A stretch of 64,000 bases of DNA, taken from positions 67,933-131,932 of the forward strand of contig JAMNXU010000013.1 in NCBI GenBank assembly GCA_023623175.1. Reading direction: 5' to 3'. The position numbers and the translations under genes are program-made. A model generated the notes under the pieces. That model saw only the letters and a program-made list of their open reading frames with translations, searched no databases and was not told the origin of the DNA. Of the stretch, positions 11,233 to 59,042 are shown one piece after another; the first letter of the stretch is position 1, and every line of letters starts with the position of its first letter. The DNA is from Bacillota bacterium (GTDB lineage: Bacteria > Bacillota > Clostridia > Acetivibrionales > JAMNXU01).

Positions 11233-11337
11233 GGGACACGGGTGGGACACGGGGACGGTTCTCCTGTCCCTGGTCATGACACAACACAAGGGGGCGGTTC
11301 TCCTGCCTCCGGGACAAGAGAACCGTCCCCGTGTCCC
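11233..11337. repeat. Palindromic 27-bp repeat: one direct and one inverted copy plus fragments
   Basis: A full copy of the 27-bp element (core ACGGGGACGGTTCTCC, ends GGGACA and TGTCCC) lies at 11244-11270, preceded by a 10-bp fragment at 11233. A degraded copy follows around 11290, and an inverted copy (two changes) lies at 11311-11337. The outer copies can pair into a long hairpin between the ECF sigma promoter region and the MATE gene stop. The same element occurs at 51457, 55916 and 58967. Confidence 0.9.
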
Positions 11338-51456: not shown

Positions 51457-51510
51457 GGGACACGGGGACGGTTCTCCTGTCCCGGGACACGGGGACGGTT
51501 CTCCTGTCCC
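51457..51510. repeat. Two tandem copies of the 27-bp palindromic repeat
   Basis: Perfect head-to-tail copies at 51457-51483 and 51484-51510 (core ACGGGGACGGTTCTCC, ends GGGACA and TGTCCC), with a degenerate third piece after them. They lie between cysE and cysS inside the operon. Confidence 0.95.
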
Positions 51511-51607
51511 ACCCGGGATGCGGAAACGATTTTTTTGCCCCATCCCCTAAACTTCAAAAAAGAAATACTGCAATTCCCGGAATATTAAAAAATGAATTTA
51601 CAAAATA

Positions 51608-53678: not shown

Positions 53679-54551
53679 TCAGCGCTTCTTGAATTTATCT
53701 TCCATTTCCTCAAACATTGCTTTTTCTTCTGCAAGCGCGCCAGGGAAATCAAATTTCTGAGGCGGGAAGAATTCATCGAACGGGAATTCGATGGTGTCGA
53801 ACAGGTCGCAGGGGTTCTCCTCGGTAGCCGCAATGCATTCCTTGTTCGGGAAGCAGAAATCAAATGCGGGTATCAGCAGCTGCACAAATCTTGCCAGCTT
53901 GATTATCGAGAAGAGACCAATGGTAACAAATACCCTCTTGCTGAGGATACCCTCGACTCCCCTTTCCTCTTCTTCTCCGCGTTTGTCTTCAAACAGCTTG
54001 TCAAGTATTCCCCTTATTTTTGCATTCAGCGGAATAGGTTCTGCAACTTCAACCTTGGAGAAGGGGAGGTTGCTCTGCTGCAGCTTGGACCTGACGGGTT
54101 TGTCAATTTCACCCTCTTCAAATACCGATGTAAAGATCTTGACGTTGCCTTCGGAACCGAAGAGGATTACCTTCTTGTCGAAGGTTATAAAGCCGGGTAT
54201 GGTGTGAATTTCGATGCAATCTCCGGGGCCGTTCGTGAAGAAATCAAGAATGACCTTGATGATAAATTTCACGTCAACGGTGTAGAAGCCCCTCTTGAAA
54301 GGCACGGGCTCGACGTCGGTCCTTACGTCCTTGACAATCGCCCTTCTTATTTTTACATTAAACGCCTCATTTATTACATCTCTTTCAGCCGGCGAAAGAT
54401 TCTCAAACCTTACCCTGGCGTCTTCTATGCAGTCTTTTTCCCGGCAGGAATCGTATATTTTTTCCACCTGAACGCAAACTGCTTCTCTAATCTTGCTCAA
54501 GTCTTTTTCCTTTATCAGTCCCGCTACAACCCTGTCATGATCGTGACCCAT
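53679..54551 (-). CDS. Conserved clostridial protein of unknown function
   Basis: A 290-residue soluble protein. The first 60 residues are charged and contain CREKDCIEDARVRFENLSPAERDVINEAFNVK. A beta-rich middle (VKFIIKVILDFFTNGPGDCIEIHTIPGFITFDKKVILFGSEGNVKIF, 95-140) repeats the style of clostridial spore-coat or envelope proteins, and the C-terminus has CFPNKECIAATEENPCDLFDTIEFPFDEFFPP. Seven or more cysteines, no membrane segment. I do not recognise a domain; a coat or spore-surface role is possible from composition only. Confidence 0.75.
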   Translation of the reverse strand: MGHDHDRVVAGLIKEKDLSKIREAVCVQVEKIYDSCREKDCIEDARVRFENLSPAERDVINEAFNVKIRRAIVKDVRTDVEPVPFKRGFYTVDVKFIIKVILDFFTNGPGDCIEIHTIPGFITFDKKVILFGSEGNVKIFTSVFEEGEIDKPVRSKLQQSNLPFSKVEVAEPIPLNAKIRGILDKLFEDKRGEEEERGVEGILSKRVFVTIGLFSIIKLARFVQLLIPAFDFCFPNKECIAATEENPCDLFDTIEFPFDEFFPPQKFDFPGALAEEKAMFEEMEDKFKKR

Positions 54552-54707
54552 TTATACATCCTCCTTCACAGTAAATAGAATCCGATAGTTTCACTTTCAA
54601 TTACATAATATGTAGGTGTACTTTTTTTGTGATTACATTGTTCCGGTTAATTTTGGGTTTTATCGTCATATACATATTATTGAACTGATAATCTTAAGGT
54701 GATATGG

Positions 54708-56285
54708 ATGTATAATGACAAGGACGCCCAATTTATATTAAAACAATCCTCCGGCATGGTCTGGAACTTCTTTTATGACGACGTGCACGGAATATGCTGC
54801 AGCACAATGACGAAGCGCCGCACCTGGACCGAGCCCATATCTCTCCAGAAAAACGCCTGCCCTTATTTTTATATGGATCTTGATTATGACGACAGATTTC
54901 ACCTGCTGTTCCAGGACAGGAACGGAAATATCCTGTATTCGCGCATTGAAAACGAAAACATAAAAACAATACCCGTATTGAAAAGCAAGAGCAAATCCGT
55001 TTACAACAAGCACTTTTACCTGATTCCGTCCAAAAAAAACATACAACTTTTTTATGTAATAGAGCACAACGACCGACTTATCCTGGCTCACCAGCAAATT
55101 ATCGGCGAAGAACCGTCCAATCCCAGGGTTATAGATTATGTAAACCCCTGCGCCTTTCCCTATGTGATCACTACGGACAGAAACGGAACCATTTATGCCT
55201 ATTACCAGGCTTCGGACGGCAAATATCTCCAGCTTGGATACAAAAAATACATGGGGAACAGGAATTACTGGGGCGAATTCACCCCTGTCACACGCTTTAA
55301 CGGGGACTGCGAGTTTCCCCATGTAATCTGCGACATAAACAATGTCATGCACCTGTGCTACCAGAGGCGTGCTGAAAAACAGTTCGAACTTGTGTACCAG
55401 CAGAAAATACCTGACCGGAATCTCTGGAGCGGGGAAACGGTGATAAGCAGTTCCGCATACAGTTTTTCTAACAGCGACATGGTGTTTGCCAACGGCAATT
55501 TGTACATTTACTGGGTTCGCGAAAATGCCGTTTATTTCAGTTCGTCCTCGGACAGCGGCACAACCTGGTCAAAGCCCGCGCGACTCAATTTCAGCTCCGG
55601 AAGACAGCTGTTCTGTTTCAACTACAGGACCAATTATCCCTACGAAAGTGACAAGATAATTGCGCGCTGCACTCCGGGCAATTTCATCAACGGCTTCACA
55701 ATGGCTTTTTATGAAGATTCCTCGAGCAATATATACAACCTCTCGGCCGAAGAACTCCGGTCCATGATCGTGGACACGCTGAAGCTTCTGAAAACAAATA
55801 TAGAAGAAATACGCGAAAACATATCCGAAATGCAGGCAAGCATCACCGAGCTGAGAGCGGCACAGCAGCATCTCGAAAGAGAGGTTACCAAGTATTCAAT
55901 AAAAATGACGCTCGCGGGACACGGGGACGGTTCTCCTGTCCCGAAACAGGGACACGGGGACGGTTCTTTTGTCCCATCTTCCAGGACAATGGATTACAAA
56001 AAAAGTTCCCTTTCTCCAGCATTCGGGGACGATTCCGCTGTCTCATTCACCGGGGCAGAAGAACATACGAACGGGAATCACTTCCCGGGATCCAGGAATG
56101 GTTCCGCTGTCCCGTCCATTGAAACAGGAGAATCGGCACCGTATACGTATACCGATAAGGCAAAAGAATCAAATTCATATTCCGAAGAAAAAAATGGAGA
56201 CCAAGAACAGGATTTCAGCAACGAAACCGAAGAAATTTTCAAGCGAGAGGATTATGATTCTGCGTCCATTAAAGAGACAAAATAA
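54708..56285 (+). CDS. Beta-propeller-like protein with coiled coil and repeat-derived C-terminal tail
   Basis: A 525-residue protein. Residues 1-340 contain about six units of the sialidase/propeller kind (HLLFQDRNGNILYSRIEN; HLCYQRRAEKQFELVYQQK; SSSSDSGTTWSKP, an Asp-box-like loop). Residues 343-400 form a coiled coil (LLKTNIEEIRENISEMQASITELRAAQQHLEREVTKY). The last 120 residues are low-complexity: GHGDGSPVP and GHGDGSFVP are translations of the 27-bp repeat, followed by weaker echoes. No signal peptide. ATG 54708 has AAGG 8 nt upstream; GTG 54699 would overlap it. Function unknown. Confidence 0.8.
   Translation: MYNDKDAQFILKQSSGMVWNFFYDDVHGICCSTMTKRRTWTEPISLQKNACPYFYMDLDYDDRFHLLFQDRNGNILYSRIENENIKTIPVLKSKSKSVYNKHFYLIPSKKNIQLFYVIEHNDRLILAHQQIIGEEPSNPRVIDYVNPCAFPYVITTDRNGTIYAYYQASDGKYLQLGYKKYMGNRNYWGEFTPVTRFNGDCEFPHVICDINNVMHLCYQRRAEKQFELVYQQKIPDRNLWSGETVISSSAYSFSNSDMVFANGNLYIYWVRENAVYFSSSSDSGTTWSKPARLNFSSGRQLFCFNYRTNYPYESDKIIARCTPGNFINGFTMAFYEDSSSNIYNLSAEELRSMIVDTLKLLKTNIEEIRENISEMQASITELRAAQQHLEREVTKYSIKMTLAGHGDGSPVPKQGHGDGSFVPSSRTMDYKKSSLSPAFGDDSAVSFTGAEEHTNGNHFPGSRNGSAVPSIETGESAPYTYTDKAKESNSYSEEKNGDQEQDFSNETEEIFKREDYDSASIKETK
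55916..55975. repeat. Two copies of the 27-bp repeat inside a coding sequence
   Basis: Copies at 55916-55942 and 55949-55975 (the second with TTTTG in place of CTCCTG) are separated by 6 bp, so the period is 33 bp or 11 codons. Length 27 is also a multiple of three, so each copy keeps the frame. Degraded copies follow at about 56027 and 56097. Confidence 0.95.
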
Positions 56286-56288
56286 AAC

Positions 56289-56313
56289 GGGCAGATTTGA
56301 GAATCTGCCCTTT
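56289..56313 (+). terminator. Terminator after the propeller-like gene
   Basis: GGGCAGATT and AATCTGCCC form a 9-bp stem around TGAG, followed by TTTCATATTC, 4 bp after the stop. Confidence 0.85.
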
Positions 56314-58958: not shown

Positions 58959-58966
58959 ACAAAATG

Positions 58967-59042
58967 GGACAGGAGAACGTCCCCGTGTCCCACCCGATTT
59001 TAAATATATAAAATGGGACAGGAGAACCGTCCCCGTGTCCCA
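58967..59042. repeat. Two inverted-orientation copies of the 27-bp repeat between convergent genes
   Basis: Copies on the minus strand at 58967-58992 (one C deleted, 26 bp) and 59016-59042 (perfect), followed by a fragment AGAACCGTCC that runs to the stop codon of the next gene. The two copies are separated by an AT-rich 23-bp spacer that repeats AAAATG. Confidence 0.95.

Follow-up and report, generated by a model that had tools for sequence, protein, structure and literature searches.

The gene considered here occupies 54699..56285 on the forward strand of the window, by which we mean the whole stretch of 64,000 nucleotides of clostridial DNA (contig JAMNXU010000013.1) that was analysed. Counted from a GTG, its open reading frame has 528 codons and comprises a BNR/propeller-like core, a coiled coil and a tail. 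The GTG at 54699 is probably the wrong start; alignment with orthologues, which begin at a corresponding MYN, makes the ATG at 54708 the likelier one. Relatives of residues 1-402 were found in 33 of the 58 genomes compared from the order, with a top identity of 56%, and the match to BNR_2 is weak, falling under the cut-off. A divergent neighbouring gene lies at 53679..54551 on the reverse strand, and related divergent neighbours are present at two other loci (L058 and L071). Openness of the reading frame by itself is little proof of a gene in this region, since frame 0 remains open in 2.8% of shuffles and a second forward frame is likewise open across 143 codons. The core is followed by a predicted coiled-coil helix, residues 350-406 (55746..55916, forward strand), which aligns with the coiled coil of the orthologues. 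An AlphaFold model, made from two sequences, is poor (mean pLDDT 43, and 44-76 for the helix block) and was used for this helix and the unstructured tail alone. In this low-confidence model the helix ends at residue 406, precisely where the first copy of a 27-nt repeat begins, which agrees with the sequence-only reading that the tail follows a coiled coil.

The tail contains five units of this repeat. Units 1 (55916..55942, 27/27) and 2 (55949..55975, 25/27, with two differences at variable positions) are intact copies of GGGACACGGGGACGGTTCTNNTGTCCC, set 33 nt apart on the forward strand and read in frame from codons starting at 55917 and 55950. Their translations, GHGDGSPVP and GHGDGSFVP, confirm within the frame 54699-56285 the two palindromic repeats that had first drawn attention to the gene. 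The further degraded copies described at the same time are also real: unit 3 (56018..56044, forward, 19/27) is read as AFGDDSAVS and unit 4 (56087..56113, forward, 20/27) as GSRNGSAVP, both beyond chance in shuffles. To these we add unit 5 (56121..56147, reverse strand, 19/27), decayed and inverted, which gives ETGESAPYT in the sense frame of the gene. When the 307 nt past unit 2 were subjected to 2000 dinucleotide shuffles, one shuffle had a single match of at least 19/27 and none had the three observed; on both strands of the window, matches of at least 18/27 all fall within or adjoining repeat clusters. Two elaborations of this pattern were not adopted. An origin of units 2-4 by tandem duplication of 69 nt is suggestive (spacers agree at 19/42 positions against 12.1 +/- 2.9 by chance, in one pair only) and is not claimed, and an older 'CCGC' subfamily as the origin of units 3 and 4 is conjectural, GGTTCCGCTGTCCC being found in just one genome copy among those listed.

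The block formed by all five units (55916-56147, about 77 codons) is weak as coding sequence, and the stretch with decayed units has a codon score of 0.06-0.11. True genes score 0.316 +/- 0.130 and the 99th percentile outside long ORFs is 0.376; the last 45 codons (56148..56282, forward strand), which are probably the remainder of an ancestral tail, score 0.37. An intrinsic-terminator-like hairpin (56289..56310, forward strand, z -4.6) starts 3 bases past the stop codon, and is terminator-like on the reverse strand too.

The 27-nt repeat is a REP-type element, albeit an atypical one. At 27 nt the unit falls within the size range of REPs, about 20-65 nt. It ends in GGGACA...TGTCCC and folds with a bulged stem of 11 bp (-6.4 kcal/mol as DNA), although as a single-strand hairpin it is modest (z -1.8). 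There are 248 copies in the genome at three mismatches or fewer, against 0 for the reversed control, and seven copies in the window, where the expected number is 0. Five of the seven, starting at 11244, 11311, 51457, 51484 and 59015, lie outside long ORFs, bearing out the statement that the repeat is elsewhere intergenic. They form an opposite-orientation pair at 11244..11337 (11244-11270 forward, 11311-11337 reverse, with a decayed unit at 11283), two abutting units at 51457..51510 (forward, followed at 51515 by what may be a decayed unit) and one unit between convergent genes at 59015..59041 (reverse, with a decayed unit at 58965). Throughout the genome REPs may stand alone, follow one another in direct arrays or pair up in opposite orientation; within 100 nt, 97 neighbours are on the same strand and 14 on the opposite one. 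One array (L112:1582-1890, genome G000, contig C25) consists of seven units in tandem with a strict 47-nt period. The majority of 200 copies sampled, in about 66 stretches around repeats, lie outside recognisable genes. Of 113 copies situated in ORFs of at least 100 amino acids, most were rejected as coding, the ORFs being spurious or the copies lying upstream of the true start. Three genomes of the order (G008, G048 and G057) contain related units, for the most part GAGACA...TGTCTC.

The genome also encodes a REP-associated tyrosine transposase (RAYT), at 31553-31888 of contig C30. This gene matches PF01797 and scores 83.6 bits with model NF047646 (REP-associated tyrosine transposase), for which the cut-off is 80; the protein has a sequence match to TnpA-REP 4er8 and contains the motifs HVH (NHVHLL) and YIHQNP. 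REP arrays in opposite orientation border the gene on both sides, and no such flanks accompany the two further Y1 transposase genes of the genome. We file the element as an atypical REP because the canonical 5' GT[AG]G foot is missing from it, the flank consensus being Y before the unit and A after; atypical REP classes without that foot have been described (PMC6006769).

The sequence-only reading regarded the length and period of the unit as tuned to the reading frame. This does not survive genome-wide comparison, in which spacings divisible by three make up 34 of 97 on the same strand, the level expected by chance; the unit is free of stops in all six frames anyway, and the tail is a surviving case. 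A period of 33 is thus correct at the host gene but is not a property of the repeat across the genome. Nor did a conserved GHGDGSxVP recur in other proteins of the sampled stretches. The 200 copies in that sample yielded two other recognisable genes with C-terminal REPs: a flippase (L002), whose REP-encoded C-terminal sequence is GTRGRFSCP, and a DNA-deoxyinosine glycosylase ORF (L088:1482-1570, contig C5 of G000), whose C-terminal part includes three REPs in a row that between them use all three frames. The genes of this genome read the REP in all three forward frames. Within the decayed units of the tail, differences at codon positions 1/2/3 number 2/3/2, 3/1/2 and 3/2/3, so that positions 1 and 2 are not protected. 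As far as these sequences can indicate, there is no sign of peptide selection, and no particular peptide appears to be favoured. There is a warning here for annotation, in that stop-free REPs inflate ORF calls near gene ends.

Orthologues of the gene had been predicted to stop near residue 403. All 28 that were examined, taken from genomes of the same order but outside the genus and family of the host, instead run on for 23-134 residues (median 74) past the common coiled coil; their tails are hydrophilic, and these and the present tail are mutually unrelated. A contig search gave a single orthologue, with the same sequence as L049. We also looked for orthologues sharing the tail described here, which would have spoken for a conserved peptide, and none has it; nor is the repeat found in the 28 tails, the best match anywhere being 18/27 or less, except for one of 20/27 at a propeller loop in L071. 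Here, then, a REP lies within a real gene whose orthologues are without it, as in other intragenic REPs. Since all 28 orthologues extend past the coiled coil, we take the tail to be ancestral and the REPs to lie inside it. The proposal that an intergenic repeat has become a C-terminal tail is correct insofar as a genuine gene, conserved in other genomes, reads the repeat in its own frame, but probably not with respect to the creation of the tail, because the orthologues have tails of their own.

Orthologues in another family, f8, contain similar units at a different position. The core GGGGACGGTTCT has 7-101 copies in the seven f8 genomes searched, compared with 0-3 in the control. The largest number, 101, belongs to G040 (loci L064 and L157), a genome 87% complete in which the REP-associated transposase model has no match. 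Four f8 orthologues (L064, L070, L072 and L071) contain GGGGACGGTTCT or near-identical units in frame, read as GDGS and in tandem runs of up to four, within the propeller loop between CYKSN and PGxxxNG rather than in the tail; L074 and the orthologues outside f8 lack them. These units are shorter than the REP of the host gene, with which they share the core; a common origin of the two would be conjectural. Units with this core are also found in frame in f8 genomes inside the RNase H domain of a UvrC (L142:1501) and, in two DUF4080 radical-SAM orthologues from different genera (L136:68 and L157:1465-1512), at C-terminal positions that nearly coincide.

Our preferred explanation, to which we would assign a probability of roughly 0.8, is that REPs mobilised by the RAYT entered an existing disordered tail in at least two rounds, and that the peptides they encode are passengers. 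The RAYT, as a TnpA-REP protein and thus an HUH/Y1 nuclease, is predicted to cleave and join the REP and so would be responsible for its movement. Units would have been inserted into the coding sequence of the tail directly past the coiled coil, the three decayed units representing an older round and the two intact units a recent one. Insertion may have been survivable because the unit is stop-free, the insertion as a whole left the frame intact and extra residues can be accommodated in a hydrophilic tail; the extended tail would then be translated, with no effect on the protein. Most likely, on the comparison of orthologous sequences, the gene-like codon usage of the last 45 codons and the terminator behind them, the cluster was inserted where the coiled coil ends, into a tail that was already there and that REPs did not make.

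The picture drawn by the sequence-only reading differs on this last point. Spelled out, it has an old stop around residue 405-410 disappearing as REPs moved into the 3' flank, with translation then continuing across a REP cluster that had not been coding before, until a new stop is met. Such an extension would explain why the coiled coil breaks off just where the first REP begins and why the next ten residues of the orthologues (LENEIxxLK) are missing or displaced in the host protein, and it would suit both the poor coding character of the REP block and the REP-encoded ends of the flippase and the glycosylase. It does not account for a tail of 23-134 residues in every orthologue, for a codon score like that of true genes in the last 45 codons, or for a terminator 3 bases past the present stop. 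We consider it improbable, but it retains some probability because the genomes compared all lie outside the genus and family of the host.

Selection at the protein level is a much weaker candidate. If the tail peptides were functional, for example as a glycine/acid-rich linker or a ligand-binding repeat, this could have preserved the likeness of the DNA, and four of the five units do share a register; f8 orthologues also have GDGS units. Yet units 1 and 2 match the genome-wide DNA consensus at silent sites as well, the changes in decayed units are even across codon positions, other genes use other frames and the motif is absent from orthologues outside f8, all of which makes this explanation very doubtful. 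It is scarcely credible that an assembly or frameshift artefact has joined the gene to an intergenic REP cluster; the assembly is a repeat-rich draft in 39 contigs, but units of 27 nt are much shorter than reads, the frame runs on with gene-like codon usage to the terminator and the genome is 99.99% complete.

Beyond insertion of REPs into the existing tail, a broader generalisation can be entertained, although we think it unlikely. Within this order, one and the same propeller/coiled-coil protein might be a recurrent target of REP-type elements, which would enter it at one disordered site or another (the tail in this gene, the loop in f8). By continually supplying fresh disordered peptide, they would diversify tails and loops more quickly than point mutation does. 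Because units with the same core recur in orthologues, the idea that the fast turnover of disordered tails is fed by mobile repeats can be put to the test. The locus is in any case a clear instance of selfish DNA passing into protein sequence, in which two generations of insertion can be read next to each other.

There is published precedent for in-frame REPs. A survey of GTAG/CGTC REPs (BMC Genomics 2013, PMC3733652) reported in-frame palindromes of 20-40 bp in real genes, single or clustered and linked to RAYTs; intragenic clusters coded for 43-82 residues, some of the palindromes lay at the ends of coding regions and there were insertions in uvr genes. The tail described here has the same kind of palindrome in a real gene, but its element has neither a GTAG nor a CGTC tag, and intact and decayed generations stand together. 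REPs have also been found inside tnpA-REP genes of subclass 2.4 (PMC6006769). That case resembles ours in that the REP is in frame and leaves the protein unbroken, but its host is the transposase itself and its REPs carry the GT[AG]G foot.

Rickettsia palindromic elements are about 100-150 nt long and mostly encode one preferred peptide, and we know of no RAYT associated with them. The present element differs from them in size, at 27 nt, and in using all three forward frames rather than one. They are likewise selfish palindromes that keep the reading frame of the unrelated proteins into which they have inserted (Ogata et al. 2000, 2002, as related in PMC3733652 and PMC10969869). With the REPtron or BIME of E. 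coli TnpA-REP our system shares a single RAYT gene between REP arrays of opposite orientation and many dispersed copies, while the hairpin and foot sequence differ. A text search of PMC3733652 found no mention of Firmicutes or Clostridia, and what the present case adds to these known systems is a clostridial lineage outside the papers cited here.
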